64,000 nt of DNA from Hoeflea sp. BRH_c9. Its GTDB lineage: Bacteria > Pseudomonadota > Alphaproteobacteria > Rhizobiales > Rhizobiaceae. Of this stretch, positions 27,828-49,350 are shown piece by piece; positions within the stretch are counted from its first letter, which is position 1; every line of letters starts with the position of its first letter. The stretch lies in contig LADQ01000020.1 of NCBI GenBank assembly GCA_000961635.1, positions 26,561-90,560 of the forward strand, written 5' to 3'. A program made the translations under genes and the position numbers. The notes under the pieces were generated by a model. That model had not been told where the DNA came from and searched no databases. It saw only the letters and a program-made list of their open reading frames with translations.

Positions 27828-28583
27828 CTAGCTCTCCTCGGTCCCTGTTCCATCGCCATCGATACCAATCAATTGCCGCAGCCCCTCCCCTGACATCACG
27901 CCCGTTTCGTTGAGACAGGTGGCAATCCGCAACAGATTCGCCTCATGCCTTTCCAGCAAATCATGGGCTAAGGTTTCTGCCGCGATCAGTCGGCCATTGA
28001 CCCTTTCCGCGAGATCGCGATCAAGCGTCAGAACGTCGAACCCGCGGAGGCTGGCGCGATAAAGCAGCGGCTGATGTTCTGAGAAACCGAGGCTGGTTTC
28101 AGCGTCCAGGGCAACAAGAGTTGCCTTGGCGAGGTCGCTTTCGTCGCCACCGCCCGACCCCGCCATGACTTCGCCGATGACACGCTGTTCGGCCACCCGT
28201 CCCGCCAGGATGGCAGCCATGATCCTGGTCAGCCAGATCTCTGTTTGCGCGAGATGGCGATATTTTTCGACCGTCACTTGGCCCATCTCCCCTAGACCGA
28301 TCGTTACGGATTCGACCTTGCCAATGCGGAGCAAAGTCCATGCGATTGCGTGGCCTGCTTCATGGACCGCCACACGCCAGCGAAGATCATCCGACATCGT
28401 CATGTGTTGTGCACCAAGCGCCCTTTCGATGTCAGTCCATGTAAGGTCACGCCTGTCCCGGCGGGCCTGTTGCCGGGCTTCTCGGACCAGCCTTTCGATA
28501 TCGGCTCCGGTTCGTCCGATGGCCAGCAATGCGAGGGATTGGAGGGCCGTTGCGGGTGAAGTGGATGGATAAATGTCAGACAT
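27828..28583 (-). CDS. FtsH-like M41 zinc-metalloprotease domain protein with AAA+ lid at its N-terminus
   Basis: HEAGHAIAWTLL zinc motif, DESDLAKATLVALDAETSLGFSE (third ligand region); N-term ALLAIGRTGADIERLVREARQQARRDRRDLTWTDIERAL resembles the FtsH AAA lid. Confidence 0.85.
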   Translation of the reverse strand: MSDIYPSTSPATALQSLALLAIGRTGADIERLVREARQQARRDRRDLTWTDIERALGAQHMTMSDDLRWRVAVHEAGHAIAWTLLRIGKVESVTIGLGEMGQVTVEKYRHLAQTEIWLTRIMAAILAGRVAEQRVIGEVMAGSGGGDESDLAKATLVALDAETSLGFSEHQPLLYRASLRGFDVLTLDRDLAERVNGRLIAAETLAHDLLERHEANLLRIATCLNETGVMSGEGLRQLIGIDGDGTGTEES

Positions 28584-30603
28584 GGGCTTGTCCTTTTTCG
28601 GTGGTGCGAACTGCGGACGATGATCTCGGATGAACGGGGCTGCATGTCGGCGTGTCTACCGTCGCCCCGTTGTCGGAAGGTAGCTCGGTATGCACGGGAG
28701 CTGACGCCAGAACGGCGGCAAGATCGGAACCCAGATGGTGCGCGAGAATGCCCGCCAGCGCTTCGGCATCAGGCGACGGGATGACGACATGTTTTTCCAG
28801 CCTGCCCGAGCGAAGCAGCGCGGGATCGATCCGGTTAGACAAGTTCGTCGCGGCAACAACAATGACGCCTTCAGACTTCAGCGAACCATCCAGAAGCTCC
28901 AGAAGTCTGGTGATCACAGTCGTCCAGTAATGCTCGTGACGGTCATCTACACCTCGCCCACCTCCGCGGCTCCCGATGGCGTCGAGCTCATCGATGAAGA
29001 CAATGCAGGGGGCATTTTCCTTGGCGGTTTCGAAGACGTGAGACATTCGCTGAAGGACATCACCAAGAAATCCGGGCTCGAGCCAGGACGCGACCGAACT
29101 CACAATTAGGGGCACCCGCAATGTGTTGCAGAGCGCTCTAGCGAAGCTGGTCTTACCCGTTCCGGGCGGCCCAGAGAGAAGCAACTTGGAACTCATCTCC
29201 TCCCAGCCGAGGGTGCCTTCACGCCAGAGCGCGAGGTCGTCCTTGAGGTCAAGCGCCCAGGGTCGTGCTTCGCCGTAGCCAGAGAGGTGTTCGACGCGCA
29301 GAGGCCGGACATGATTGGTCGTCGAGGCTGCGGCTTCACCTGCCGTAGCCGCCGGGATCGTGCCCTTGCCTTTGTCGGCGGCAGCATCGGTCGACGGCTC
29401 GACGTCGGGCAGGATCATGTCGATCGGAGTGGGTTTCGGCTTGTCCCGCGGCGCCGAAAGCGGATTTGATGAGCGCGCCTTGCGACCCTTCTTGTCATCA
29501 TCCGCGGTTTCGCCAGCGCCCGCTGGGTCCACGAGGCTTGCAAGCAAGCTCAGCGCCGATCTAGCCGTGCGCCCGGGCCGCACTGCCAGCGCCAGATCAT
29601 CAATAGCGAGGCAGCTGGGATCGAACACTATCCCTTCCATAACCGCGAGGGATTCATTGACGGGAATACCAAGACATACATGGAGCAGCTCCGCGATCAG
29701 CTCTGCGTCGATACAAGCGCCTTGAAGCACGATGTCGGCGGCGGCGATGATTTCAGGCCTGGCAGGCGCTTGGGTCTCATCAGCGATGACAAGCGGCGCA
29801 GGGTCGCCAAGAATTGCCTTGGCCAGTTTTGTTGTCAGTGTCTGTCGGGTCAATTCCACGACATTGCGGCCCGACGCTGTGACAATCTTCCGCTGCCGCA
29901 TCTCAGGTCGAGCTTCGCCAAAACGTTCCGAGAGCGGACGGTCACCCCTGATGTCTGTCAACTCACCATAGAAGGGACATAGCAACGCATCCTCCAGCAT
30001 TAGGCCGCATTGTCTCTCAAAACCTGCGACCGGAATCCTGAGCAGGATCACCGGGTTTCGCCGCATTAGAACATCGCGCAAATGACCGAGGTCCGTGATG
30101 CTCTCGCCAGTAGCACGGGCGATCAGCAAAGTGGCGGCCACCTGCACGGGATTGGGTGACGGCAGAAATTCGCGCAGCAGCGCAAGCATGCTTGGGGCGT
30201 CCAGCTGCCTGGGGCCGTTGGGACAGATGGCAGGAGTTCGCATCGTCTTCGGTGGTGAAGGCTTCACGCCGGGGTCAACGTGTTTCCGTTGAGCCTTGGA
30301 CGCTGACTTACTGCCATGCATTCCAATGGCCATCCGGTTGATGGGTTCGCCGCCGTCATACATCATTGTCGATGCCCCCTTCAGCGCTCGACCCACGAGA
30401 CGGCGGGCACGGTTCGGATCGCCGGCAAGCCCGGATGCCGCAGACCCAGACACTTGCCATGCGATGCCTTGCGCTTTCTCACCGAAGGGAAAGCTGATGT
30501 CGAGCAGTCCGGCGTCCGATGCGCGCTGGTAGAGGTCAAGCACAGCACGTCTGCGGATGCGCTTGAGAACATGGTGAGCGATACGTCTATTGATCGTATT
30601 CAT
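28576..30603 (-). CDS. AAA+ ATPase (FtsH/Cdc48-like core) with unique N-terminal region
   Basis: LLLSGPPGTGKTSFARAL, IVFIDELDAIGSRGGGRG, VVAATNLSNRIDPALLRSGRLEKHV; no evident TM segment; start ATG at 30603. Confidence 0.88.
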   Translation of the reverse strand: MNTINRRIAHHVLKRIRRRAVLDLYQRASDAGLLDISFPFGEKAQGIAWQVSGSAASGLAGDPNRARRLVGRALKGASTMMYDGGEPINRMAIGMHGSKSASKAQRKHVDPGVKPSPPKTMRTPAICPNGPRQLDAPSMLALLREFLPSPNPVQVAATLLIARATGESITDLGHLRDVLMRRNPVILLRIPVAGFERQCGLMLEDALLCPFYGELTDIRGDRPLSERFGEARPEMRQRKIVTASGRNVVELTRQTLTTKLAKAILGDPAPLVIADETQAPARPEIIAAADIVLQGACIDAELIAELLHVCLGIPVNESLAVMEGIVFDPSCLAIDDLALAVRPGRTARSALSLLASLVDPAGAGETADDDKKGRKARSSNPLSAPRDKPKPTPIDMILPDVEPSTDAAADKGKGTIPAATAGEAAASTTNHVRPLRVEHLSGYGEARPWALDLKDDLALWREGTLGWEEMSSKLLLSGPPGTGKTSFARALCNTLRVPLIVSSVASWLEPGFLGDVLQRMSHVFETAKENAPCIVFIDELDAIGSRGGGRGVDDRHEHYWTTVITRLLELLDGSLKSEGVIVVAATNLSNRIDPALLRSGRLEKHVVIPSPDAEALAGILAHHLGSDLAAVLASAPVHTELPSDNGATVDTPTCSPVHPRSSSAVRTTEKGQAHV

Positions 30604-31037
30604 GACGCATCTCCCCATGTGCCGCTTGTCCATCTGGTGGCCGTGTCCTCCAGGTCTTTCGGCAAATGTTTGCGGTTTCCCTGGAGCCAGTCGCGGACAA
30701 CGATGCAGGTCGGGTCGCCCTGGTCGCAGAGATCGAGAAGCCACCCGCGCGGAATGGAAAGCACGCTTTCAAGCCTGACGCCGCGGCGTTTGGCTGAACG
30801 GATCGCAATGCGCACCACCTTGGCAACGTGATCGGCATGTTCCTCGTCGGTCAGCGGCTGCGGGTCCGGCCTTGCAGCAAGCCGTTTGGGCAAGCCTTGC
30901 GTCGACGCTCCATTCTTGAGTGCAGGCGACTGCGGGGATTGCGCCGCACAGTGATGGAGAGACTGACGTTGTGGATTTGCGTCAGTCGATCGGTGGACTT
31001 CGGGGAAGGCAATGATTTCAGCGGTCTCGGTGTTCAT
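30600..31037 (-). CDS. Hypothetical protein, translationally coupled to the AAA ATPase
   Basis: 145-aa ORF with 4-nt overlap with the AAA gene. Confidence 0.7.
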   Translation of the reverse strand: MNTETAEIIAFPEVHRSTDANPQRQSLHHCAAQSPQSPALKNGASTQGLPKRLAARPDPQPLTDEEHADHVAKVVRIAIRSAKRRGVRLESVLSIPRGWLLDLCDQGDPTCIVVRDWLQGNRKHLPKDLEDTATRWTSGTWGDAS

Positions 31038-34930: not shown

Positions 34931-35083
34931 ATCGGCTGTTCGGCCGGCAGTCGGAAGACTTCCGCGTTTATTTGCCGTCCTTTCCCAATCATGTGCGCCG
35001 CAAGGCAGCAACACATGACGACAAGCTCCACTCATTGACCGGAGGTTTCGCTTGGCTGGACGTATGGTCCAAATTGTTATTTG

Positions 35084-38000
35084 ATGAAAACTTCAAGTTG
35101 GCAGAATTGGATAGTGCAATCTATGGATATCGGAGCTCATGAAGACCCACCCATGGATGACCTCGAAGCCGCTACATCTGTTGCGATCATTCCCGATATT
35201 GTCAGCGCCATCAATTATGCCTCTTGGCAGAATGCTGTCCCAATTCTGAGGTCAGTTGAAATCAACAACGGCACGGCGACGACGCTCAGCAATCTTCGGC
35301 TCGAGCTCAGCGTCACGCCTGCGTTCTGCCGGTCGAAACACTGGACCATCGACCGCATGGCGCCCGGCGACAGTTTGAGGATTTCGGACCGGGCGATAGA
35401 ACTCGATCCGGAGTTCCTTGCCGGCCTGAATGAAGCGGAACGGGGACAGCTCCGGTTCATACTGTTTTCGGAAGATCAACCGATCTCCGAGCATGTAGAG
35501 GACATCCGTCTGCTGGCAAGGGACGAATGGGGCGGGTTCGGCGCCATGGCGCCACTGCTTGCCGCTTTTGTCATGCCCAATGATCCCGGCGTTGCCAGGG
35601 TCATCAAGGATGCCGGAAACGTTCTTGCCGCCCACGGGCATTCCTCGGCGCTCGATGGCTACCAGTCGCAGGATCCGCGGCGAGCCTACATGCTGGGCGC
35701 AGCCATCTGGTCGGCAGTTGCGGCGCGCAGGCTGACCTATGCCGAGCCGCCGCGTAGTTTCGAGAAGTACGGGCAGAAGGTCAGACGGCCGACGACCATT
35801 ATCGATGACGGCTTGGCGACCTGCCTCGACACAAGCCTGTTGTTCGCCGCAGCGCTGGAGGCCGTGGGGCTCAATCCAATGGTCCTGCTCCTCGACGATC
35901 ATGCGTTTACCGGTTTCTGGCTGACGCGAAAGACCTTTCCCAACCTGATCGAGACCGATCCGGGCGAAGTGCGCAAGGCCTTGGCCGGCCGCGAAATCGT
36001 CATCTTCGAAACGACGGCCATCACTCATGCGCCTGCATCCACATTCGAGGATGCGATCCGCATCGCCCGCGGCCGGATGTCGGAGCAGGAGGAGGATCGT
36101 TTCGTCGCCATGATCGACATCGCGCGGGCGCGCCAGGCGCAGATCAGACCGATGGCGTCGCATCAACGCGCAGTTGCCCTCAAGGCCGATGGCGGAGCAG
36201 AAGCAGCACCCTTGCCGCTGCCATCATTGCCAGACTTTGCTGCGATGCCGACCGACAGCGCCGTGGAGAAGCCGACGACGGCATCTGGTCGAATCGATCG
36301 CTGGCAGCGCAAGCTTCTCGATCTTTCTCTTCGGAATCGGCTGCTGAACTTCAGGGACAGCAAACAGGTGATCCCATTTGTCTGCCCCGACATTTCCTTC
36401 CTGGAAGACCGGCTGGCCGAACAGGCTCGCATTCGCATCATATCGTTGCCGGAGCAGAACCCGATCGGCGGTCGCGATGAAAAGTTTTACTTCCAGGCAA
36501 CAGGAAAGGATTTGAATACCGAATTCGCCTTGGCGGCGCTACAGCGCGACGAGCTGTCGTCGCCGCTCGCCGTCAAGGATCTGGATTCCCGACTGATCGA
36601 GCTCTACCGGCGGGCGCAGAACGATCTGGCCGAAGGCGGTTCCAACACGCTCTTTCTCGCGGTGGGTTTTCTGCGCTGGAAGCGATCGGCCGATGACGCT
36701 AAATCCTATCGAGCGCCGTTGTTGCTTGTGCCGGTGAAGCTCGAGCGCAAGAGCGCGTCATCTCGGTTTTACATTCTTCACCACGAGGATGAGGTCCGCT
36801 TCAACTCCACACTGCTGGAGTTGCTCAAGAAGGATTTCGACCTGTCGCTGCCGCAGTTTGAAGGGCCGCTGCCCACCGATGACAGCGGCACAGATGTTCC
36901 GTTGGTTCTCGAAATGGTACGCCGCGCGGTGCGCGAGGTTCCAGGATTCGAAGTGGTCAATGAATCGGCATTGTCGACCTTCTCCTTCGCAAAATACCTG
37001 ATGTGGAAAGATCTGGTCGACAGGACGGACCAGCTTCGCCAGAGCAGGGTTGTGCGCCACCTGATCGATAACCCCGAGACCGCCTTCGAGGCTGGCGTGG
37101 CCACGGCCTTCCCGGGTGAGCGCGACATCGATGTCAGATATGAACCGAAACATCTGGTCATGCCGCTCGCAGCCGACTCGTCGCAACTCGCCGCGACCAT
37201 GGCGGCCGCGGAAGGACATGATTTTGTCCTGATAGGACCGCCCGGCACCGGCAAGAGCCAGACCATCGCCAACATGATCGCCCAGTGCCTGTCGGAGAAG
37301 AAGAGCGTCTTGTTCGTTGCCGAGAAAACCGCTGCTCTTGGCGTGGTGCATCGGCGGCTGCAACAGCACGGACTGGGCGCCTTTTGCCTGGAGATCCACT
37401 CCAACAAGGCCGAGCGGAAGAAGTTCGTCGCGCAATTGAAGGAGTCCTGGGAGGCGAGCACATCCGGCTCCGGCGAACAGTGGATCAGGATCAACGATCG
37501 TCTGCGGGTGCGCCGGGATGAGCTGAACGGCTACGTCCAATCCCTGCACAGACAGGCGCCGAACGGCTGGTCCATCTTCAGGGCCATGGGGGTCTTCGTC
37601 CGGGGCATGGATGCCTATGCACCCGATCTGGAATGGCCTGCACCCAGCCAGCACGATGAACGCAGTTACAAGAGGCTGGTCGAGCTCGTGGCCGAACTGG
37701 CGTTGGTCTTCCGCTCAGTCACCCCGGTCAAATCGTTGCGCTTTGTTGACGTGACAGAGTGGTCAGCGAGCTGGGAGAAGAGCTTCCTGGCCCAATCCGA
37801 ACGTCTGTCCGGCTCGGTTGCCAACTTGCAGAGGACACTCCAAACCTTCACGAATGCGCTCGGAATGGATGGGAGATCGGATTGCTCAGTGGGCGAACTG
37901 AATGAACTGGCCGTGATGGCAACGTCACTGCAAGCAGCCGCCGGGAAGAATTTCAGGGTCATCTTCGATCGCAATTTCGCCGAACTCAGAAACTCCATCG

Positions 38001-41000
38001 CGGAAGTCGAGAACGCCATCAGTCAGTTCAAGGCCGCCGGCTCGAAACTGGGCGCCGATTATGCGCACGAGGATCTGGTCCGGATACCTGTCGACCAGCT
38101 GGACATCGACTGGAGGCAAGCCGGCGCAAGCGCTTGGCCGAAATCCCTGTTGGGCAAAAGACGGGTCCGCAAACTGCTCCAATCCTATGTGAGATCCGGG
38201 AATGCGGATCCGGAGCGCGACTTGCCCCACTTGCGGATCATGAGGGCGAGCGCTGAAGCAGTCGGGGCCAGTTCGCTGGGGGCGCACGCGCCCGGTTGGC
38301 GCGGGGTCGAGTCCGACACCGCTGCGATCTCGACCTACTTCGATGAGGCCGCGGCACTCAGATCAGTACTGATGCGGCTTGGGCAGGCGGCCGGTTCCGT
38401 CAAGTCGGTGGCGCAAGCGGTGGCGCCTTGCCTGATGGGCGCCGATTCCGATCATCCGCTGCTGCCAAAGGCGGTCGCCTATCTCGAGGCACGGCAGGCG
38501 TTCACCATCGAATTGAAGGCCTATCGGGATCTGGCCGGAATTGTTCCGGTTGCGGCGGGCGCCACGTCCATGCTGGCCGATATTCTGACGACTATGGCGG
38601 ACATACGGGCCAATCAGACGGCTCTTCAGACATGGACCTCGTGGTGCGATATTCGCAAGAAGGCGATTGCGCATGGCCTCCAATCCTTCGTCTCTGCTCT
38701 CGAGCAGAAGCGCCTGGAACCTGACCAGGCGGGGCCTGCTTTCGAGCTCGCCTATGCGCGGTGGTGGTTGCCAGGCGCAATCGATGCCGATCCGGTCATC
38801 CGCCAGTTCAAGCGGTTCCAGCATGAGGATGCACTCGCCGATTTCAAGAGGCTGGATGAACTGGCGCAGCAAGGCGCGCCGTCCGAGATCCAGAGAAAGC
38901 TGGCGCGGAACCTGCCCGCCCCAAATGAGGTGCCACGACGGTCGGAACTCGGACTGCTGCGCCATCAGATGGAACTGCAAAGGCCGAGCAAATCCATTCG
39001 CGACATGATTGCCGGCATGCCCCAAACTTTCGGCACACTCGCGCCCTGTCTTCTGATGTCGCCGCTTTCGGTTGCCCAGTATCTGCCGGCGGATCAGGCG
39101 CTTTTTGATGTGGTGATCTTCGACGAAGCCTCGCAGATCACCACCTGGGATGCCGTCGGGGCCTTGGCCCGGGGGCGGCAGGCTGTGATCGTTGGCGACC
39201 CGCGGCAATTGCCGCCCACCAATTTCTTCGGCAAGGCGGACAATGACGACGCAGACCCCGAGATCCAGGAGCATGACAAGGATCTGGAGAGCATCCTTGA
39301 TGAGGCCAAGGTGTCGGGGATCCCGGTTCTTGAACTCAATTGGCACTACCGCAGCCGCCATGAATCCCTGATCGCATTCTCCAATTGGCACTATTACCAC
39401 AACCGCCTCATAACCTTCCCGTCGCCGGTGACCGAGGACCGGGCGGTGTCGCTCCGTTACCTCTCCGAGGGGATCTATGATCGCGGCAAGAGCCGCACCA
39501 ACAAGGTCGAGGCCATGGCCATCGCCAGCGACGCAGCAGCGCGTATGCGGGCTTGGCTGAAACTGCCGGAACTGGAACGGCCGACGCTCGGCGTCATCAC
39601 CTTCAACAGCCAGCAGCAGTCGCTTATCGAGGACCTACTTGATCAGAAGCGCAGGGAATTTCCTGAACTTGAATGGTTCTTCGCTCGCGACCGGATCGAG
39701 CCGACGGTGGTCAAGAACCTGGAAAACGTGCAAGGCGACGAGCGCGACGTCATGCTGTTCTCGATCACCTTCGGTCCTGATCAAGCAGGCAAGTTGACGA
39801 TGGATTTCGGCGCCTTGAACCGTGATGGTGGCGAGCGGCGGCTGAATGTGGCGGTCACCCGGGCGCGCCAGGAACTGATGGTCTATTCCTCCATCACCTC
39901 GGACAAGATCGACACCGGGCGCACCAAGGCCGAAGGCGTCAATCACCTCAAGACCTTTCTCGATTATGCCGAGCGCGGCGCAATCGCCCTGCCGGCAGTT
40001 GACAAGGGGTCGGTCGGCTCGTTCGACTCCCCGTTCGAGCAGGCTGTGTCGGCAGCGCTTGACGCCAAGGGGTGGACGATCGTTCCGCAAATCGGCGTGT
40101 CCGGATTCCGCATCGATCTCGGCGTGGTCCATCCCCACAAGCCGGGCACATTCCTGGCCGGCATCGAATGCGACGGCGCCACCTATCACCGCTCGGCGAC
40201 CGCACGCGACCGGGACAAGATCAGGGAGGAGGTGCTCAGGGGCCTCGGCTGGGAAATCCTGCGCATCTGGTCGCCGGACTGGTGGCATGACAAGGCGGGC
40301 GCCACCGAGCGTCTGCACATGGCGCTCGAAGCCTTGGTTGTGGCGAGCCAGGCGAAGGACGCGGAACGGGATGCGCAACAAGAGATCGAAAGCCGGTCCG
40401 CCGAATCAGACGCAGATAATGAAATGTCCCAGGAGAGCTACGACATGACAGAGACCGAGGGCGTAACACCTGACGACGACTCGGATGCGCCATCCTCGAC
40501 CGACCCTGCCACGCAACCCGAGGCGGGTAGCCCTTCCTTCCAGAAGGTCATTCCCTCAGACGCCGAAGCCGTCGAGCGATTTAGCAAGACCGATCTCTCG
40601 GAATTCAGAGCCGATCCAGACGCCTTTTACGAGTTCAGCTACCGCTCCACCATCGACGGAATGGTCGCCAGGATCGTCGAGACAGAAGCCCCGGTGCGCG
40701 ACGATGTGGTGGCCCAACGCATCGCCCGGGCGCATGGCTGGCTGCGGACCGGCAGCCGCATCCGCGACAAGATCGAACGACACCTGCGCCCCTTTGATTT
40801 CACCCAGGACAGCGCCGGCCGCTTCCTCTGGCCCAAAGGCGGGATCGTGGAGACCGTCAAATATCGGCCGCCCGCGACCGAGGATGACCGTCGGCCGGTG
40901 ACCGACATCGCGTTGCAGGAGCTTGTCGGATTGGTACGGGCCTGTCCCGAGGCGCTGGAGGAACCGGACCCGGCGCTGGTGCTGGCGCGGCTGATGGGCC

Positions 41001-41086
41001 TCGAGCGCCTGGCCGCCAGCAGCCGCGCGCGGATCGACGAGGCGATCGCATTGTTTACGCAAGCCAATGGGAGGGCTGAGATGTGA
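35084..41086 (+). CDS. Very large DUF4011 / SF1 (UPF1-like) helicase / VSR-like nuclease / DUF3320 protein
   Basis: DUF4011-like SGRIDRWQRKLLDLSLRNRLLNFRDSKQ; Walker A GPPGTGKSQTIANMIAQ; VVIFDEASQIT; VGDPRQLPPT; NVQGDERDVMLFSI; LNVAVTRARQEL; nuclease FRIDLGV...AGIECDGATYHRSATARDRDKIREEVLRGLGWEILRIWSPDWW; DUF3320-like C-term. Confidence 0.9.
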   Translation: MKTSSWQNWIVQSMDIGAHEDPPMDDLEAATSVAIIPDIVSAINYASWQNAVPILRSVEINNGTATTLSNLRLELSVTPAFCRSKHWTIDRMAPGDSLRISDRAIELDPEFLAGLNEAERGQLRFILFSEDQPISEHVEDIRLLARDEWGGFGAMAPLLAAFVMPNDPGVARVIKDAGNVLAAHGHSSALDGYQSQDPRRAYMLGAAIWSAVAARRLTYAEPPRSFEKYGQKVRRPTTIIDDGLATCLDTSLLFAAALEAVGLNPMVLLLDDHAFTGFWLTRKTFPNLIETDPGEVRKALAGREIVIFETTAITHAPASTFEDAIRIARGRMSEQEEDRFVAMIDIARARQAQIRPMASHQRAVALKADGGAEAAPLPLPSLPDFAAMPTDSAVEKPTTASGRIDRWQRKLLDLSLRNRLLNFRDSKQVIPFVCPDISFLEDRLAEQARIRIISLPEQNPIGGRDEKFYFQATGKDLNTEFALAALQRDELSSPLAVKDLDSRLIELYRRAQNDLAEGGSNTLFLAVGFLRWKRSADDAKSYRAPLLLVPVKLERKSASSRFYILHHEDEVRFNSTLLELLKKDFDLSLPQFEGPLPTDDSGTDVPLVLEMVRRAVREVPGFEVVNESALSTFSFAKYLMWKDLVDRTDQLRQSRVVRHLIDNPETAFEAGVATAFPGERDIDVRYEPKHLVMPLAADSSQLAATMAAAEGHDFVLIGPPGTGKSQTIANMIAQCLSEKKSVLFVAEKTAALGVVHRRLQQHGLGAFCLEIHSNKAERKKFVAQLKESWEASTSGSGEQWIRINDRLRVRRDELNGYVQSLHRQAPNGWSIFRAMGVFVRGMDAYAPDLEWPAPSQHDERSYKRLVELVAELALVFRSVTPVKSLRFVDVTEWSASWEKSFLAQSERLSGSVANLQRTLQTFTNALGMDGRSDCSVGELNELAVMATSLQAAAGKNFRVIFDRNFAELRNSIAEVENAISQFKAAGSKLGADYAHEDLVRIPVDQLDIDWRQAGASAWPKSLLGKRRVRKLLQSYVRSGNADPERDLPHLRIMRASAEAVGASSLGAHAPGWRGVESDTAAISTYFDEAAALRSVLMRLGQAAGSVKSVAQAVAPCLMGADSDHPLLPKAVAYLEARQAFTIELKAYRDLAGIVPVAAGATSMLADILTTMADIRANQTALQTWTSWCDIRKKAIAHGLQSFVSALEQKRLEPDQAGPAFELAYARWWLPGAIDADPVIRQFKRFQHEDALADFKRLDELAQQGAPSEIQRKLARNLPAPNEVPRRSELGLLRHQMELQRPSKSIRDMIAGMPQTFGTLAPCLLMSPLSVAQYLPADQALFDVVIFDEASQITTWDAVGALARGRQAVIVGDPRQLPPTNFFGKADNDDADPEIQEHDKDLESILDEAKVSGIPVLELNWHYRSRHESLIAFSNWHYYHNRLITFPSPVTEDRAVSLRYLSEGIYDRGKSRTNKVEAMAIASDAAARMRAWLKLPELERPTLGVITFNSQQQSLIEDLLDQKRREFPELEWFFARDRIEPTVVKNLENVQGDERDVMLFSITFGPDQAGKLTMDFGALNRDGGERRLNVAVTRARQELMVYSSITSDKIDTGRTKAEGVNHLKTFLDYAERGAIALPAVDKGSVGSFDSPFEQAVSAALDAKGWTIVPQIGVSGFRIDLGVVHPHKPGTFLAGIECDGATYHRSATARDRDKIREEVLRGLGWEILRIWSPDWWHDKAGATERLHMALEALVVASQAKDAERDAQQEIESRSAESDADNEMSQESYDMTETEGVTPDDDSDAPSSTDPATQPEAGSPSFQKVIPSDAEAVERFSKTDLSEFRADPDAFYEFSYRSTIDGMVARIVETEAPVRDDVVAQRIARAHGWLRTGSRIRDKIERHLRPFDFTQDSAGRFLWPKGGIVETVKYRPPATEDDRRPVTDIALQELVGLVRACPEALEEPDPALVLARLMGLERLAASSRARIDEAIALFTQANGRAEM

Positions 41087-41148
41087 AGTGAAATCGGCCA
41101 GTTTTTTGTCGGTGGCAGTTTATCGGCGCTGAAACTGCATAGCCCGAA

Positions 41149-41165
41149 GCGGAAATCATTTCCGC
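41149..41165. repeat. Palindrome copy 4 (GCGGAAATCATTTCCGC)
   Basis: Exact sequence read. Confidence 0.95.
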
Positions 41166-41324
41166 ATTGCGCCCCCATTATGGACATTCAAGCAAGCATC
41201 ACCTTTTCTTAAAAGCGGACAGTTCGCGACTGAACTGGATAATTGTCCCGCCGGCGATCATAGTACCACACTCGCGACATGGTAGCCGCTTTGCCGGCGA
41301 GCGGACGCCTTTATTCAAACTCTG

Positions 41325-41561
41325 TCAGGATGTCCAAACACGTTTGGAGGGGCTTAAATGCGCCACCAGCCTGACAACGGCATATCTACACAGGCCGTAG
41401 TCGTGTGGATGCAATGGTTCTGACAGACCGGCATCGACTTCGTGCTGGAACAACTCCGCGACCATCGTGAGCATGCCCTTGCGGATCGGCGCCACGGTCA
41501 CCGACATCCGTTGCATCAGGCTGGCGAATTCGGCTTCATCGATATAGCCGGGCACCGTCAT
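41325..41561 (-). CDS. Hypothetical small protein
   Basis: 78-aa ORF, divergent from the 41603 gene. Confidence 0.35.
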   Translation of the reverse strand: MTVPGYIDEAEFASLMQRMSVTVAPIRKGMLTMVAELFQHEVDAGLSEPLHPHDYGLCRYAVVRLVAHLSPSKRVWTS

Positions 41562-41858
41562 CGCACACCATCCTTGAGGGCACCAATTACGAGGAGGACG
41601 CGATGCCGCTTACCAACACACTGAAGGCGCAGTATTTCAATGAATGGATGCGCCACTTCATCGAGGCGCCAGAATCGTTCGCTCGGGAGTTCGAACAGGT
41701 AAACGGGTTCCTGGCGGAAGAAGCCAATGGCAAGGAACCTAGCTACGGCGAAACTTGTGCCGCGTACATGAAGCAGATTACTGGCGAGTTGTGCTTCGAG
41801 GTCTATGAACCGCGCCGGGTTTGCCGGAGGCTCTAACTCCTGAGTAGGATAGAGCATC

Positions 41859-42185
41859 ATGAGCAAGACAACGAACAAGTTTTCCCCCGAAGTGCGTGAA
41901 CGCGCGGTGCGTTTGGTGCTGGACAATCAGGACCAGCATGGATCGCGTTGGCAGGCGATCCTATCCATTTCATCGAAGATCGGCTGCGCGCCGCAAACGC
42001 TGAACGACTGGGTCAAGAAGGTCGAGGTTGATACTGGCCAACGTGACGGCATCACGACCGAGGTAGCCGAGAAGATGAAGGCCCTCGAACGCGAGAACCG
42101 CGAGCTCAAACAAGCCAACGAGATTCTGCGTAAAGCGTCCGCATATTTTGCCCAGGCGGAGCTCGACCGCCCATTCAAACGATGA
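41859..42185 (+). CDS. IS3-family transposase OrfA (HTH)
   Basis: [17 protein letters not shown]...[13 protein letters not shown]...[29 protein letters not shown]. Confidence 0.95.
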
Positions 42186-43085
42186 TCCGCTTTATTGAGG
42201 ATCACCGTGCTGATCATGGGGTCGAGCCAATCTGCCGTATGCTGCCGATTGCCCCTGCCACTTTCTATGACCACCTGGCCAAGCGCGCTGATCCATCGCT
42301 TCTATCGGATCGAGCGGTGCGCGATGCACAACTCAAGCCCGAGATCGAGCGGGTCTTTGAGGATAACCTCAGCGTCTACGGCGTGCGTAAAGTCTGGCAC
42401 CAGATGCGGCGAGAAGGCTTTGAGATTGCGCGATGCACCGTAGCCAGGCTGATGAAGGATATTGGAATTGAAGGCGTCATCCGTGGTAAAAAGCCCAAAA
42501 CAACGATCCCTGATAAGGCGCTACTTTGCCCACTGGACCGGGTGAACCGTCAGTTCCACGCGCCTGCGCCAAACGTGCTGTGGGTCAGCGACTTCACCTA
42601 TGTCGCGACGTGGCAGGGCTTTGTCTACGTCGCTTTCGTCATCGATGTGTTTGCGCGCCGTATTGTCGGATGGCGGGCAAGCCGCACACCCAATGCTGGG
42701 TTTGTTCTGGATGCTTTGGAGCAGGCCATTCATCAACGCAGACCGGCACAAGACAAACTCGTTCACCATTCGGACCGCGGGTCGCAATATCTATCGATCA
42801 AATACACGGAGCGGCTGGCCGAAGCCAAAAATAGCACCTTCCGTCGGCAGCGTCGGGGATTCCTATGACAATGCATTGGCCGAGACAATCAACGGCCTGT
42901 TCAAAGCGGAAGTCATTCATCGTCGCGGCCCATGGAGGAGCTTTGAAGCCGTCGAATACGCCACCCTCGAATGGATCGACTGGTTCAACAATGGCCGCCT
43001 GCTGGAACCGATCGGAAATATTCCACCAGCAGAAGCCGAAGCAAACTTCTACGCCGCTCTGGAAAGAGCAGACATAGCCGCATAA
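42182..43085 (+). pseudogene. IS3-family transposase OrfB (DDE integrase), frameshifted
   Basis: VNRQFHAPAPNVLWVSDFTYVATW...FVIDVFARRIVGWRAS...HHSDRGSQY then frame change; the other frame continues VGSVGDSYDNALAETINGLFKAEVIHRRGPW... Confidence 0.9.
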
Positions 43086-43757
43086 CTTAAACCAAACGGC
43101 CTCCGGTAAACCCGGCGCGGTTCACTACGCGCAAATCACTGAAGCCGAGGCCAAGCGCCGCACGGCCGTCGCCGACATTATTATCTCTGAAATCAAAGTC
43201 GGCGAGGCACTGCATGACGGCTCCATTCGCCCCTTTCTTGGCGGCTATCCGTCTGATGGTATGGTCTTACATCACAAGCATGGCTGACTTCACCCTAACA
43301 AATACCTCGAGGCCTCGAAGGCTGATATCGAAGCCGGTGATCTCACACGGGAAGACGTCGCCGATGCTCTCGGTGTCGATCTCGCTGAAGTGGATGCCGA
43401 GAATGCTCGTGATCGTGCCCGGCAGAGGCTCGTTGACGATGGCTTTTACAAGCGCGCCCTTCAGAACGTCACCGAGACCGTTGTTGGTTACGGCATCAAG
43501 CCCGCCACATGGACAATGCTGCCTGACGAATCCGATCTCAATGGGTGGCCGTTTGATGGCACGGATCCGGAGGAGACCGAAAACCTTCAATGCAGAACTG
43601 TTCTCGAGCTGGATCCTCTTGAGCAAGTCGCTTTGATCACAAGCTGATCGAAACCTTCGCGGAATGACGTGGGATACCTAGCCAGATAGCAGTCCCGTCT
43701 CACAACACCGCCGCCCGGCTGATCAGCTCGGCGGCGGTTTGCATTTCAGCGCTGCCG

Positions 43758-44660
43758 TCATCGATCCGGCTTCACGTCATCTTTCGCATCGAGACCCTCG
43801 AAGAACCTCTTAGCCTGGGCATTTCGTATCGCTTCTTCGAGCGTTGTCGCCATCCCCTCGAAGATCTCCCCCAACTTGTTGAGGTAGTCTTGTGTGATGT
43901 CCCGGTGTTGGTTCCCTTCCGTATCGGAGCCGTTGCGGTGCACGCAGTCGTGCCTCTTCTGGACTGACGCCACAGCCATTGCCCGTTCCTCCTGATCGCG
44001 CGGCAGGATCGGCTTCCCGAATGCGGTCTCGGCGATACGGCTGACAGGAACTAGCTTGTGGAAAGAAAACTTCTGGAGAACTTCTTTGAGCATGTCTCGG
44101 ACGACGTTTGGGTTCTCCAGGACGGTGTCGAGGTTGAGCTGCTTGTCGTGTAGATCCAACTCCTTCAATTTGATCAGCCGCCTTTGCACCGGGACATCGA
44201 CAAGGGCAGACCCTACAATCGCGTCAGACAGGTACGCCTCGAAGATCGAGTAAAGCGTGGTGAACAGCATCCGGTTCCGGCTGCTTGAGCCGCCCGGCGT
44301 GCTCAGCTCTCTGACGTTGCTCTTCCAGTCCACCAGCGCGCGGCGGAAAATTCCGTAAGCATCAGGCTCCGGTTCCGGTTCCTCCCAGTCGTTATAGCTG
44401 TCGTCGACGTTGATGGTGACCTCAACATCAGGATCGTCCTCTAGCTCAGCCGACCATGAGCCATCGTCGTTCCGGATGATTACTGTCCATGCGTCTTCGT
44501 CCTCGTCGTATGAACATGCGACCTCCTCAAATTGCGCCGGGTCGTCCCCTGCCACTCTGAGCCATTTCGAGATCCGGTTGCGGCAATGTGGGCATTCGAA
44601 CGTTACCTCGACGTCCACCTGCGACCAGAGCTCGTGCATATATTCCTTGACCGAACCCAC
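43758..44660 (-). CDS. HEPN-like domain protein with N-terminal CPHC motif
   Basis: RHDCVHRNG (R-x4-H HEPN RNase-type motif), helical context; GTG start at 44660 after GGAGG. Confidence 0.68.
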   Translation of the reverse strand: MGSVKEYMHELWSQVDVEVTFECPHCRNRISKWLRVAGDDPAQFEEVACSYDEDEDAWTVIIRNDDGSWSAELEDDPDVEVTINVDDSYNDWEEPEPEPDAYGIFRRALVDWKSNVRELSTPGGSSSRNRMLFTTLYSIFEAYLSDAIVGSALVDVPVQRRLIKLKELDLHDKQLNLDTVLENPNVVRDMLKEVLQKFSFHKLVPVSRIAETAFGKPILPRDQEERAMAVASVQKRHDCVHRNGSDTEGNQHRDITQDYLNKLGEIFEGMATTLEEAIRNAQAKRFFEGLDAKDDVKPDR

Positions 44661-44664
44661 GACC

Positions 44665-45543
44665 TTATGCCTCCGGGAACACCAGATCGAGATCGACCAG
44701 CGGCTTCCCGACAATTATCACGTGTGCTGGGCTTTTGATGCTGGGGTAGAGCTGAAAGTAGACCGCTATGGATCCCGCAGCCGGTCCCGTCGTCAGTCGT
44801 CCCATGGACATCTGGAGGGTGTTCTCAGGGTTTTCAGCGAACTCATGAACGCCGGGCATATCGCCGACATAAAGCCCGACGTCGTCAGACCGATTCAGGA
44901 TGATGTCGGTAAGGAATGGTTCGAAAGCGTCAGGCCCAATTTTCGCCGACACGAACGCATGCGCAGTCTTAGCGAGGAACCGCTGGTACTTCACCTTGTT
45001 GACGTTGCCAAGGCTCATGGCCACGTGGTTGGCTCCGGTCTCTTCCCGGACCTGCTTGTTGAGGGCATTGACTTCGCTCTCGACAAAATATGTCCAAGGC
45101 TGATCGGGCCGACTAACGGTCTCTTCAAGGATCCGAGCGGGCGGCGACTGCCACAAGTTGATGATCAGCGGCGCCCTTTCGATCGGGATCGTCCGCTCGC
45201 CGAGATCCCGGATCTTGTTGGCCTCGTCATCGACCTCGATGAAGTGGATGACGACCTCCCTGATGCGATCCTTCTTCTTACGGGTTGGTGCATCCACCTG
45301 CGCACGAAAGGCGCCGAGCTGATGCCGCAAAACATTCTGTTCGTAGCGCGTGATCTCCTTCTGGCAGACCGTGCAGCAGGACTTCTCGAAAATCAGGGTG
45401 TCGGCTGCTAGGGCGTAAGGGATGACGTGCTCGTCGGTCAGCTCTTCCGGCGGCAGGATCTCGTAGCAGTAGATGCACTTCCCGGGCGACGGGGCGATGG
45501 GTGCCTTCTCTCGTTGCTCGAGGTCGAATTCATCTACTCGCAT
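44665..45543 (-). CDS. HNH endonuclease-like protein
   Basis: CIYCYEILPPEELTDEHVIPYALAADTLIFEKSCCTVCQKEITRYEQ. Confidence 0.78.
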   Translation of the reverse strand: MRVDEFDLEQREKAPIAPSPGKCIYCYEILPPEELTDEHVIPYALAADTLIFEKSCCTVCQKEITRYEQNVLRHQLGAFRAQVDAPTRKKKDRIREVVIHFIEVDDEANKIRDLGERTIPIERAPLIINLWQSPPARILEETVSRPDQPWTYFVESEVNALNKQVREETGANHVAMSLGNVNKVKYQRFLAKTAHAFVSAKIGPDAFEPFLTDIILNRSDDVGLYVGDMPGVHEFAENPENTLQMSMGRLTTGPAAGSIAVYFQLYPSIKSPAHVIIVGKPLVDLDLVFPEA

Positions 45544-45712
45544 ATCTGTGGCACCGCTAGTCAGTTGGTCTTGCTTTTGATCGCCGACCCGACCTTATCT
45601 GCGGCAGCCGAGAGTAGCAAAGTGTTCGCGAATAACGAGAGCGTGGAAGCCAAATGGCTTCTTATCCACGGACAGGAGTGCAGACTTGTGTTCGACGCGA
45701 CTCGCTGGGAAC

Positions 45713-46042
45713 TCATCCCGAGCGTGATCGAGCCAGCTCGAGCAGCGGCACGCATTTTTCGTTGAGCACGAACCCCGTCTCCTCGGCTTCCGGCGGCAGC
45801 ATATAGAGGACGTCCAGCGGCAGGTTCTTGCAAGCAAGTCTGATCTCGTTTTTCAGCCGCGACAACGGCTCGCCGGACGGGCCGACGACCAGGATGTCGA
45901 AGTCGTTGCCGACGCGAACGAGCGAAGACCCGAACATGAAGGATTCGAACTCGGACAGTGAAGGGCAGGTTTCAAGAAGATGCCTCGCCACTTCACCGCA
46001 CGTCTTCAACGTCCTTTCAGGAGCACCTTGAGTTCGTCCCAT
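45713..46042 (-). CDS. Minimal nucleotidyltransferase (MNT-like)
   Basis: FMFGSSLVRVGNDFDILVVGPSGE...LPLDVLYM: GS...DxD pattern of pol-beta-fold NTases; start MGRTQGAPERTLK. Confidence 0.72.
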   Translation of the reverse strand: MGRTQGAPERTLKTCGEVARHLLETCPSLSEFESFMFGSSLVRVGNDFDILVVGPSGEPLSRLKNEIRLACKNLPLDVLYMLPPEAEETGFVLNEKCVPLLELARSRSG

Positions 46043-46647
46043 TTCATCACCTTGCAGCCCAGCTCCTCTCCAGCTTCGATAGCCTTTTGGGTGGGTTTCC
46101 CATTCGGGTTGATGTTCCATACGACATCCACTGCGCCGAACCGATCCCAAAGGGCCCGAACCGCCTCGGCCGTAGGCTCGTATTCCATGACCATCCCAAT
46201 CCGTAGCTTCCGCCCGTCTGCGAGTGTCACGCTATGGATCCGATCGAACTCTCGATCGATCGACGTCACGCATCGGAGCTGCCTGATCAGCCGATCCGAG
46301 AAGAAAAATTCCTTGTGTCTGGCCGTCTTCACGTTGTCGTCCTGAATGGCCGAGGTGAGCGTCCCGCCGTTGCCCCAGCCGATCTCCTGACCTTCGAGAT
46401 ATCTGATGGCAGCGCCTTCCCAAACGGCGCCTTTTCTATAGCCGCAGAGGAAGTCCATCTCTGGATATTGCTGGTGGTAACCCATCGCCAACGCAAGATC
46501 GATGAAGTCGGCCTCTGATATGACGGCGACCGCTTCCGGCCGCCCGTGAGCCGTAATCTTGATCGCGTCTCCACGGATATTCTCCGCCCCCGTTACGACC
46601 CGAACTTCATGGATGGATTTGAGCGCGTAGCCAACCTGCCAGTTCAT
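46006..46647 (-). CDS. Hypothetical protein
   Basis: 213-aa ORF; ATGA overlap with upstream HNH gene; ~37-bp overlap with NTase gene. Confidence 0.7.
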   Translation of the reverse strand: MNWQVGYALKSIHEVRVVTGAENIRGDAIKITAHGRPEAVAVISEADFIDLALAMGYHQQYPEMDFLCGYRKGAVWEGAAIRYLEGQEIGWGNGGTLTSAIQDDNVKTARHKEFFFSDRLIRQLRCVTSIDREFDRIHSVTLADGRKLRIGMVMEYEPTAEAVRALWDRFGAVDVVWNINPNGKPTQKAIEAGEELGCKVMKWDELKVLLKGR

Positions 46648-47336
46648 GCGAAAATTCCGTCCATCTCTTCAGGATACCGGATGCCGCTCCCGGCGACGTC
46701 GCAGACGTGCCGCTCGGAAAGACCTCGAACGTGTTCCTGGTATCGAGCCAAAGTTTCCTTTTCCGCGTCGGTCGCGTGATGCAGGTTCGTCTTGATGATC
46801 GCGAGGATACGGAAATGGTTTGGCAGGATCACGCTTCTCATCCGCTGGGACCACGTTTTCGCGGTCTCGGACTCCGGGTCGAATTCGAAAGCCTTGCCAT
46901 CCACGGGGGCGAATTCCTTCCAAACAGCCTTGTTCTCGCTCATGGCTGCGGTGACCGCGTCGCGCACCTGCCCGCGCACGTCATAGGCTCGGATGCCCTG
47001 CTTGCGCGCGAGCGCCCCAAGGTGCTCCGCCTTCCATCCCAGCAAAGCGTTGCGAGGATAGGCGTCCGGATCCTTGTCTACGATCGTATGGCAGGTCGGG
47101 CATAGGAGGATGAGATTATCGAACGTGTCCGGTTCGAACTCCCCTTCTGGACGTTCTTCCCGCCGAGGGCCGCCCTCGCCGTGCGGGATCACATGCGCCA
47201 TCTCTGCAATATGCTTGTCGCCTCCCATTTCCGCAGGGAAGAGGGGAGCGAGGCAGTCAGGACGTTGGCAATGGCCAGCGGCCGCTGAGAAGAGGCGCAG
47301 TTTCAACCCTGTCGGTATGTGCTTTCGATCTGCCAT
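46644..47336 (-). CDS. HNH endonuclease
   Basis: GHCQRPDCLAPLF...IAEMAHVIPHGEGGPR...DTFDNLILLCPTCHTIVDKDPDAYPRNAL. Confidence 0.9.
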   Translation of the reverse strand: MADRKHIPTGLKLRLFSAAAGHCQRPDCLAPLFPAEMGGDKHIAEMAHVIPHGEGGPRREERPEGEFEPDTFDNLILLCPTCHTIVDKDPDAYPRNALLGWKAEHLGALARKQGIRAYDVRGQVRDAVTAAMSENKAVWKEFAPVDGKAFEFDPESETAKTWSQRMRSVILPNHFRILAIIKTNLHHATDAEKETLARYQEHVRGLSERHVCDVAGSGIRYPEEMDGIFA

Positions 47337-47697
47337 CAGTGGGCCTTAAATTCGGGTGCAATCTGAAATGGCACCAATGGCTTAAGGTTGCAAGTCTGTC
47401 CGGAACGGTAGCGTCGTCGAGCAGCCTGTTGGGTACTTCAACGAAGGGGTCATATTAGTCGTGGTACATTGGCAAGCAGAGGATTTGGTAGCGTGCGACA
47501 GGAAAGGCACAGGTGAGAGTCCGCTCTCATGTGTCGCTCAAAGGGCGGACGGCGGGCTAGCGAAGCTGTATCGCGGCGCGCTTAGCAGATCCCGCGCGTC
47601 AGCTCTGGGCCTTGCGTGACTGAACCGTCGGTGTTGATCAATGTCTGCTTTGTCCAGACTCAGACTTTTAAGCCGTCAGTCAACTCCCGGCCCCGCA

Positions 47698-47714
47698 GCG
47701 GAAATCATTTCCGC
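47698..47714. repeat. Palindrome copy 5 (GCGGAAATCATTTCCGC)
   Basis: Exact sequence read. Confidence 0.95.
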
Positions 47715-47868
47715 TTTGCGCGCTCATTCCGGTCACCGCCGCCGTGTTAGCAGCTTCCCGGAAGCGGACATCGGCGCAGCTACGAAAGTTGGCATTCTGG
47801 CGCCACCAGCGGAACCTTGAGGCGCGCGTAAACAAAGCCATCGAAGACGCCGTCACGACCCGGAAATT

Positions 47869-48057
47869 GTTGTCCTTAGAATCGGTGAAGCGGTGGCGGA
47901 TTAGCTCCGCCAAATCCTCATAGGAAGCATAGCGCGCCATCATCTCATCAAGGCCCAGCATAGTTAGCGCCGAAACCATCAGGTGCCGCGTCCAGCCGTC
48001 TTTCGTATGCGTACGGTCAAAACGTTCGATCAGCAGTACGTCCTTGCCCGCCGCTCT
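47869..48057 (-). pseudogene. HipA-family toxin remnant
   Basis: RAAGKDVLLIERFDRTHTKDGWTRHLMVSALTMLGLDEMMARYASYEDLAELIRHRFTDSKDN, HipA-like central segment only; flanks do not match. Confidence 0.65.
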
Positions 48058-48345
48058 TCTCATCGACAAGGAACACAAAAGTTGGCGGCGTGACGAAGGA
48101 GTGATGTGAAGGCAAAAGCGGAATGGACCGCACGAACCGAAGAACCCGTGGCATCGTATAGCGCATCCAAGCGCGGTAAGTTGATAGGGATCGGTTCGAG
48201 CGCAAAACATCAGGGCCAGCGATCATATCAAACCGCGCTTACAGGCCGGAGACATGACTGCACCCGCCCCGCCAAGCTCAAACATCCGCTAAATCACCTT
48301 GCCGAACGGGCGCCATCCAGACATGACGATGCCCCCGCACTGCAT

Positions 48346-49350
48346 TTACCTCCCGATAGCCTCCAATCCACGTGCCGCGAAACGGCGCGCCAGTGGCGCC
48401 AAGTTCACCGCCTCGGGGTCGGCGGCATTTCCCAAACGCGCGCGTTCAGCAATGCCAACGAAAATGACCGCGAAGCGGAAAAAGGCGAAGGCCTCGTGAA
48501 AGGGCTTCAGCCCCAAACCCAGGTTTGCATGTTCCATGTAATGGGCGATGAACTCATCGCGTGCGGGCAAACCGGGCGTTGCGTCACCAAGTCCGTTGAT
48601 GCCGCCATATTCGTCCGGTGTGGTTCGCCAGGTCATGCAACAGAAACCAAGATCGGCGAGTGGATGACCGAGTGTCGCAAGTTCCCAGTCGAGAATGCCG
48701 ATGACACGCGGCTCGTCCGGCGCATAAAGCAGGTTGCCGATGCGGAAATCGCCATGGACAATCGACGCTATGCCGTCGTCGGCCGGCATGTGGCTGGCAA
48801 GCCAGTCGGCAAGCTGGTCGATTTCCGGAATATCGTTCATCTGAGCTTGTTGCCATTGCGACAGCCAGCGCTTGTGTTGGCGTTCGAAGTAGCCCGCAGG
48901 CCGTCCGAAATCCCCCAGTCCCACCGCCGCGGGGTCAACTGCATGCAGTTTCGCCAGGGTTTCAGCCATCGACAGATAGATGGCGCGCCGGTCGTCGGGT
49001 GAGACGCCGGGTAGCGCAGCGTCGTGAAACACCCGGCCCTCAAGCCGCTGCATGACATAAAACGCCGTTCCGAGCACCGCCTCGTCTTCACACAGTGCCA
49101 GTGGCTGCGGGACGGGAACACCGGTTCCGAACAGAGCCGACATCGCCCGGTATTCGCGTTCGATTGCATGCGCCCCGGGCAAGATCTTGCCATCAGGCTT
49201 TTTGCGCAACACGATCCGTTGCCGGTCGGTATCGACAAAGAAGGTTGGATTCGACTGGCCTCCGGATATCCGCTCGATAAGGACAGATCGGCCCAGATCC
49301 TGGGATTGCAGCCAGTCATCAAGACGGGTTTGATCGAGACCGGCGCTCAT
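48346..49350 (-). CDS. Phosphotransferase (APH/ACAD10-like) family protein
   Basis: GGQSNPTFFV, IVHGDFRIGNLLYAPDEPRVIGILDWELATLGHPLADLGF. Confidence 0.92.
   Translation of the reverse strand: MSAGLDQTRLDDWLQSQDLGRSVLIERISGGQSNPTFFVDTDRQRIVLRKKPDGKILPGAHAIEREYRAMSALFGTGVPVPQPLALCEDEAVLGTAFYVMQRLEGRVFHDAALPGVSPDDRRAIYLSMAETLAKLHAVDPAAVGLGDFGRPAGYFERQHKRWLSQWQQAQMNDIPEIDQLADWLASHMPADDGIASIVHGDFRIGNLLYAPDEPRVIGILDWELATLGHPLADLGFCCMTWRTTPDEYGGINGLGDATPGLPARDEFIAHYMEHANLGLGLKPFHEAFAFFRFAVIFVGIAERARLGNAADPEAVNLAPLARRFAARGLEAIGR

Follow-up and report, generated by a model that had tools for sequence, protein, structure and literature searches.

Do five neighbouring genes on one strand, encoding two HNH nucleases, a minimal nucleotidyltransferase (NTase), a HEPN-like protein and a protein not recognised at first, make up one operon? 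The question is posed by a locus in the genome of Hoeflea sp. BRH_c9 (Rhizobiaceae), within a stretch of 64,000 nucleotides (nt) of contig LADQ01000020.1 that is referred to here as the window and along which all positions are counted. An initial annotation had taken the five genes for a single candidate defence unit and had pointed to the known toxin-antitoxin pairs in which an NTase modifies a HEPN RNase. As judged from the boundaries of homology, the locus instead consists of two abutting mobile cassettes that are independent of each other: module A, an ordered triad whose middle member is predicted to be restriction-endonuclease-like (REL), and module B, a pair comprising the second HNH protein and the HEPN-like protein.

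Two abutting cassettes

All five open reading frames (ORFs) are present on the minus strand as first described. Module A consists of an HNH nuclease gene (46644..47336; 230 amino acids (aa), with matches in Pfam, PADLOC and the Protein Data Bank (PDB)), the REL gene (46006..46647; 213 aa, characterized by AlphaFold2, Foldseek and hhalign) and the gene for the minimal NTase (45713..46042; 109 aa with the motif GS-x7-D-x-D, assigned through NTP_transf_2 matches of its relatives). Module B consists of a gene for an HNH_5-type nuclease (44665..45543; 292 aa with CxxC, EHVIP and CCxxCQ motifs) and a gene with a GTG start for a zinc-ribbon plus HEPN-like protein (43758..44660; 300 aa, RHDCVHRNG). 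The HNH and REL genes overlap by 4 nt (ATGA), the NTase and HNH_5 genes are separated by 169 bp, and the HNH_5 and HEPN-like genes by 4 nt. Each ORF has intact homologues at 50-97% identity, and comparison with homologues gives ratios of nonsynonymous to synonymous substitution (dN/dS) of 0.09-0.16 for the HNH, REL, HNH_5 and HEPN-like genes and of 0.31-0.45 for the NTase gene, the 5' end of which may overlap its neighbour. Since these ratios are well below 1 and the homologues are intact, all five are maintained genes under purifying selection, not chance ORFs.

The closest relatives of module A are found in three Rhizobium genomes (REL identity 97, 90 and 87%). The module A cassette, delimited by blastn, runs from 45598 to 47694 (minus strand), with 97.4% identity to Rhizobium sp. 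Leaf453 over 45600-47694; homology to the window stops at 45598-45600 in all three Rhizobium loci, and the genes that come next after the end of module A are LmuA and LmuB of Lamassu. The module B cassette (43705..45543, minus strand) is delimited by blastn against a prophage contig, L036, to which it is 77.5% identical, with an edge exactly at the HNH_5 start codon; 168 bp further downstream (43255-43422) likewise match this contig. The homology edges at 45543 and 45598 therefore place the A/B junction within those 55 bp. The two genes of module B are found in none of the other module A loci by tblastn and profile searches, module A models have no match at any module B locus of L036-L068 (among the loci scanned, their matches are the module A loci and the window only), and the module A NTase is in none of ~25 HEPN-family loci. 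Analysis of gene neighbourhoods, one of the checks suggested at the outset, thus yields two separable modules, each of which recurs without the other. The discovery that the genes occur only separately elsewhere had been named as grounds for giving up the proposed unit: that is the situation of module A relative to module B, but not of the genes within either module.

These boundaries bear directly on the proposal of one five-gene operon, in which the NTase would neutralise a HEPN RNase by the logic of type VII systems of HEPN and minimal nucleotidyltransferase (HEPN/MNT), two HNH proteins being added. In its favour, the five genes lie next to one another in the same orientation, partnerships of NTase and HEPN proteins are known in general (PMC7641770), and module A resembles HepT/MntA in combining a minimal NTase with a nuclease in a short operon, with a HEPN-like gene nearby. 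However, the modules stand apart at every other locus, homology breaks between 45543 and 45598, relatives of the HEPN-like gene are usually alone or accompanied by an HNH gene, and the module A NTase always comes third after HNH and REL, partners that are not HEPN. The signature motifs of HEPN/MNT systems, GSX10DXD in the NTase and RX4HXY in the HEPN protein (PMC7641770), also differ from what the locus encodes: the motif of the window NTase is GS-x7-DxD, and that of the HEPN-like protein is R236-x4-H241-R-N (RX4HXN), with a Tyr two residues past the His in 0 of 18 relatives. A loose scan for GS..DxD within 3 kb of HEPN-like genes detects no adjoining NTase partner gene, only scattered matches (L048, L056, L061, L067), the one at L067 falling inside the HEPN ORF itself. 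Because the modules are apart elsewhere, homology breaks between them and neither motif is present, the pairing of NTase with HEPN is rejected, and the five-gene operon is regarded as very improbable; membership in HEPN/MNT is not claimed, since adjacency and both signature motifs fail.

The HNH-REL-NTase triad

The complete triad, in the order HNH-REL-NTase, occurs at 32 distinct loci (duplicates removed), among which REL identity falls to 23-29%. A REL of ~213 aa is encoded at 26 of these, the window included: in Rhizobium (Rhizobium sp. Leaf453, R. leguminosarum USDA 2370, R. metallidurans), Janthinobacterium, Vreelandella, Proteus, Rouxiella, Phaeobacter (two), Phyllobacterium, Oryzicola, Tsuneonella (two), Sphingomonas, Sphingobium and Marinomonas; in metagenome-assembled genomes labelled Sedimenticola and Hydrogenedentota, two viral contigs and one genome of the same order; and on plasmids of Ensifer, Polymorphobacter, R. 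leguminosarum (with an apparent frameshift in HNH) and Vibrio. The other six (L035, L047, L072, L073, a Klebsiella plasmid locus and an Acinetobacter plasmid) have a single REL of ~136 aa lying between HNH and NTase, the next ORF being in all six a mini-NTase with GFGS...D[ILV]D. Within the close clade, HNH length is fixed at 230 aa and the HNH/REL overlap at 4 nt. The pairwise divergences of the three proteins are correlated (r 0.93-0.97; 0.88-0.96 when the most distant member is left out), and among the fetched loci REL-NTase is never coupled to another effector. In Alpha-, Beta- and Gammaproteobacteria, module A recurs on plasmids, on prophages and on conjugative elements; its occurrence is patchy, and in a sample of the phylum it is rare (3 of 399 genomes, the window's own included). 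A copy at L031 (4398-5737) has no HNH gene, unrelated sequence at the REL N-terminus and an intact-looking NTase; it looks like a broken remnant of module A.

The HNH protein matches Pfam HNH_2/HNH above cut-off, PDC-M68A and SAVED-HNH effectors of PADLOC at 1e-21 to 1e-18, and SAVED/HNH chains of the PDB at 7e-17 to 5e-8; residues H48, N74, C79, C82 and H83 are unchanged across 8 homologues. Sequence comparison identifies its N-terminal HNH domain (residues ~5-112) as homologous to that of Cap5, an effector of cyclic-oligonucleotide-based anti-phage signalling (CBASS), with the catalytic and zinc-binding residues kept. Cap5 degrades DNA once its SAVED domain has bound the signal (PMC8568899). 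The module A protein is unlike Cap5 beyond this domain: the matches end near residue 117-140, its C-terminal half shows no SAVED domain in Pfam, PADLOC or the PDB, and the C-terminal domain (~115-230) is conserved only in this family and its HNH-REL relatives. The best PADLOC match is PDC-M68A (1.6e-21), and M68B-type ATPases stand beside module A at three loci. Assignment of module A to PDC-M68, a system of HNH and ATPase, was nonetheless set aside: the match is confined to the HNH domain (residues 7-135), the window has no adjoining M68B ATPase, and REL and NTase have no PADLOC model.

The initial assignment of the third gene as an NTase is borne out through its relatives, 14 of 17 of which match NTP_transf_2 (PF01909; best 2.6e-5), although the window NTase itself has no match to that model. 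Like other minimal nucleotidyltransferases the family has FGS and DxD; F37, G38, S39, D47 and D49 are unchanged in the 17 relatives, the spacing GS-x7-DxD of the window varies from about GS-x7 to x9 among them, and the third acidic position is an Asp in the window (PLDVLYM). The start of the gene is uncertain: the ATG at 46042, which is found in most relatives, lies 34 nt ahead of the REL stop codon and creates a 37-nt overlap; an alternative start (TTG/ATG) at the REL stop, present in many relatives, would give ~97 aa; and the sole possible start at L030 lies just after the REL stop.

A Cap5-type HNH domain, as used by CBASS effectors, together with an NTase in the same operon brings to mind signalling of the CBASS type, in which a signal made by the mini-NTase would be sensed by REL or by the HNH C-terminal domain and so would trigger DNA cleavage. 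The known CD-NTases that make such signals are much larger than ~100 aa, which is the size of the NTase of module A; PADLOC also gives no match to a CD-NTase for this protein (109 aa, the only NTase of the module), the third acidic residue varies across its family, and the SAVED domain is absent. Signalling of this kind is accordingly judged improbable, and CBASS membership is not claimed because both SAVED and a CD-NTase are absent.

The 213-aa protein has no sequence match in Pfam, NCBIfam, PADLOC or the PDB. Structure prediction, which had been recommended for it, gives a confident AlphaFold2 model (mean predicted local distance difference test (pLDDT) 92.9, predicted TM-score (pTM) 0.86, from 21 window and locus sequences) with a restriction-endonuclease-like order of elements, H-EEE-H-E-(E)-H-E-H followed by H-EEE-H-E-H-E-H, a repeated alpha-beta3-alpha-beta. 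The top Foldseek match in the PDB is EndoMS/NucS (prob 0.99, E 0.008, TM 0.28), with RPB5 a further top match, both of them restriction-endonuclease-like folds; RPB5 and an Mrr-domain protein are matched in a library of viral structures. By hhalign, one half can be aligned with the other across 84 columns (E 4e-4 when treated as a single comparison; probability 35%), and the single-REL proteins match the C-terminal half along its whole length (E 8e-10; probability 96.5%). The model, the hhalign comparisons and the weak structural matches suggest that REL is an internal duplication of a restriction-endonuclease-like domain. It resembles the PD-(D/E)XK fold of EndoMS/NucS and the RPB5 N-domain in element order and in its top structural matches, and differs from the nucleases of that fold in being duplicated within one chain, in having x-x-Tyr in place of (D/E)xK and in its variable catalytic residues. 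Tyr156, which sits on or close to the place of the catalytic Lys, is kept in every REL aligned, the 21 double ones as well as the single ones, and the acidic positions of the active site vary across the family. REL is probably not a normal nuclease, because a Tyr occupies the Lys position and the acidic positions vary.

A restriction-like arrangement would make REL the part that recognises invading DNA or recruits to it, the HNH protein the part that cuts and the NTase an accessory of repair or regulation. The resemblance of REL to DNA-acting folds (EndoMS/NucS, Mrr-like) and the DNase type of the HNH effector speak for such an arrangement, which must nevertheless be considered distinctly unlikely: the module has neither a modification enzyme nor a component for discriminating self from non-self, and the REL active-site residues are not kept across the family.

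Module B and the surrounding island

Module B is an independent prophage-derived pair of an HNH nuclease and a HEPN-like putative RNase. The HNH_5 assignment of the 292-aa protein agrees with the initial annotation, as does the HNH assignment in module A; its Pfam match (7.2e-5) lies below the curated cut-off, and its EHVIP and Cys residues are unchanged in 4 homologues. For the 300-aa protein, R236, H237, C239-G244, H201, E141, R130, C23 and C26 are invariant across 18 homologues, and RH(D/H)CVHRNG is unchanged across prophage and plasmid relatives. In its AlphaFold2 model (pLDDT 86) a zinc-ribbon/beta part at the N-terminus precedes an all-alpha C-terminal domain, and a conserved R-x4-6-H in an all-alpha domain is a mark of the HEPN superfamily. 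On this motif and model the protein is probably HEPN-like, an assignment less firmly based than those of the HNH and NTase proteins; profile and fold searches give less, Pfam HEPN_RiboL-PSP matching 8 of 18 relatives at near full length but always below threshold (best 3.3e-5), and Foldseek finding no HEPN fold in the PDB with this model. It is like RiboL-PSP-type HEPN proteins in its invariant R-x4-H and these sub-threshold matches, and unlike them in its zinc-ribbon/beta N-terminal domain and, in one clade, its HNH partner. The top Foldseek matches are CorA proteins, at low probability; a cofilin match of its profile (PDB, 2.6e-4) spans the domain boundary and is treated as chance.

In most of its relatives, mostly prophage-borne, the HEPN-like gene is alone. 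Within one Rhizobiales clade it is preceded either by HNH_5 (L009, L010, L036) or, instead, by a gene for an unrelated 127-aa HNH protein (L055, L057, L058); by the sequences of these genes, the HNH partner has been swapped within the HEPN-like family. At the latter three loci, Rhizobiales prophages, the gene ahead of the 127-aa HNH gene ends in ...DVWIRRPGRDTDYR. A small protein encoded beside HEPN-like genes on different elements has a common stretch '...RRDDRLRR-EADAVAAALYGEI...' (L041 654-1472; L036 6600-7238; L039 7461-8075).

The initial view of the genes as candidates for defence is also supported: they are accessory genes of defence type, and the locus is placed in a defence island because a gene for the 2001-aa anti-phage protein ProA adjoins it (35081-41086, plus strand; NCBIfam NF058533 2195 bits, PADLOC PDC-S37 1210 bits). 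An IS3-type insertion sequence (41859-43085, plus strand) encodes a helix-turn-helix transposase protein and contains an ALIL frameshift pseudoknot (42140-42256), which is all that Rfam detects over 41000-48400 by way of a non-coding element upstream. A HipA C-terminal domain fragment (47680-48210, minus strand; 8e-9) is probably what remains of a gene at the border of the island. Farther away on the minus strand, a split AAA ATPase (722 aa; PADLOC IetA 4e-23) with a Peptidase M41 protein (251 aa) after it at 27828-30744 is possibly another defence unit, an FtsH-like pair in separate genes, and a further HNH_2 nuclease (311 aa; 24565-25500, minus strand; 7e-12) lies on the other side of the same island. 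Relatives of module A and the single-REL loci have as neighbours Lamassu LmuA/LmuB (L014-L016) and PDC-M68B-type ATPases (L027-L029), these ORFs being assigned by gene position and size; Shedu (L006), ABC-three-component genes (L007) and DRT3 (L047); and, as mobile features, a prophage integrase (L013) and conjugative elements (L076/L077). The PADLOC alignment scan returned counts, not single proteins, and only the LmuA of L014 is reported individually. A role for module A as a Lamassu accessory was discarded: LmuA/LmuB lie behind it at three Rhizobium loci, and about 25 other loci are without them.

Possible function and significance

What might module A do? A modest preference goes to a three-gene accessory DNase-effector system, anti-phage or self-limiting and probably the former, with REL and NTase as its control parts. 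What the analysis shows is the parts of module A, their constant order and homologies, the predicted fold of REL and the independence of the two modules; the defence function, the effector role of the HNH protein and all regulation of module A are what we infer. The HNH protein would be the DNA-cutting effector, with a Cap5-type domain bearing catalytic His/Asn/His and zinc cysteines and a family-specific C-terminal domain standing where Cap5 has its SAVED sensor. For REL the likeliest role is binding of the HNH protein or of nucleic acid, by which the nuclease would be held or targeted; for the mini-NTase it is transfer of a nucleotide to REL or to the HNH protein, which would set an on/off state, by analogy with HEPN/MNT. 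In HepT/MntA a tyrosine of the toxin receives AMP from the NTase (PMC7641770), and REL Tyr156 is a candidate nucleotide acceptor.

Module A might instead be read as a toxin-antitoxin addiction module, with HNH as toxin, REL, NTase or both as antitoxin and no dedicated trigger by phage. Locations on plasmids, prophages and conjugative elements, small overlapping genes and the use of NTases as antitoxins by type VII systems fit this reading; against it stand the first position and, for a toxin, large size of the nuclease, and the association of module A with defence islands. Sequence cannot tell such a module from a defence system, and this reading is considered rather unlikely.

Several points weigh against the preferred DNase-effector interpretation. 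About half of the close clade has a His at the third acidic position of the NTase, and in many relatives this residue is His or absent; NTase activity may vary because this position is not kept, and the NTases of some relatives may, on their sequences, be inactive. The target of the NTase may be REL, the HNH protein or neither. The structural matches of REL have TM-scores of 0.2-0.3 and E-values of 0.008 or worse, and the list of defence neighbours is one of raw occurrence, uncorrected for a background rate. Modules A and B could, moreover, still cooperate in this one strain.

The initial impression that the combination has no known name holds: none was found. The module A triad is not in PADLOC-DB, Pfam or NCBIfam as a system, the only models there being those for HNH and NTP_transf_2, and no description of an HNH/NTase/REase-like system was found in open-access text, a search beyond whose reach lay subscription papers, supplements and later defence catalogues. 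Relative to the databases searched, module A is new: a three-gene unit that recurs and apparently has no name. A more specific possibility, tentative and on balance unlikely, is an undescribed DNase defence in which a Cap5-type HNH protein has exchanged cyclic-nucleotide sensing for a retired REL whose Tyr is nucleotidylated by an NTase of ~100 aa; if true, neutralisation by an NTase would reach beyond HEPN RNases and take in a DNase.

The misleading HEPN-MNT reading of this locus is removed, and a cleanly bounded three-gene unit takes its place. The single-copy and duplicated versions of REL provide a natural series for the role of this protein, and if the inferred mechanism is true, module A would place a Cap5-type DNase under a new type of control.

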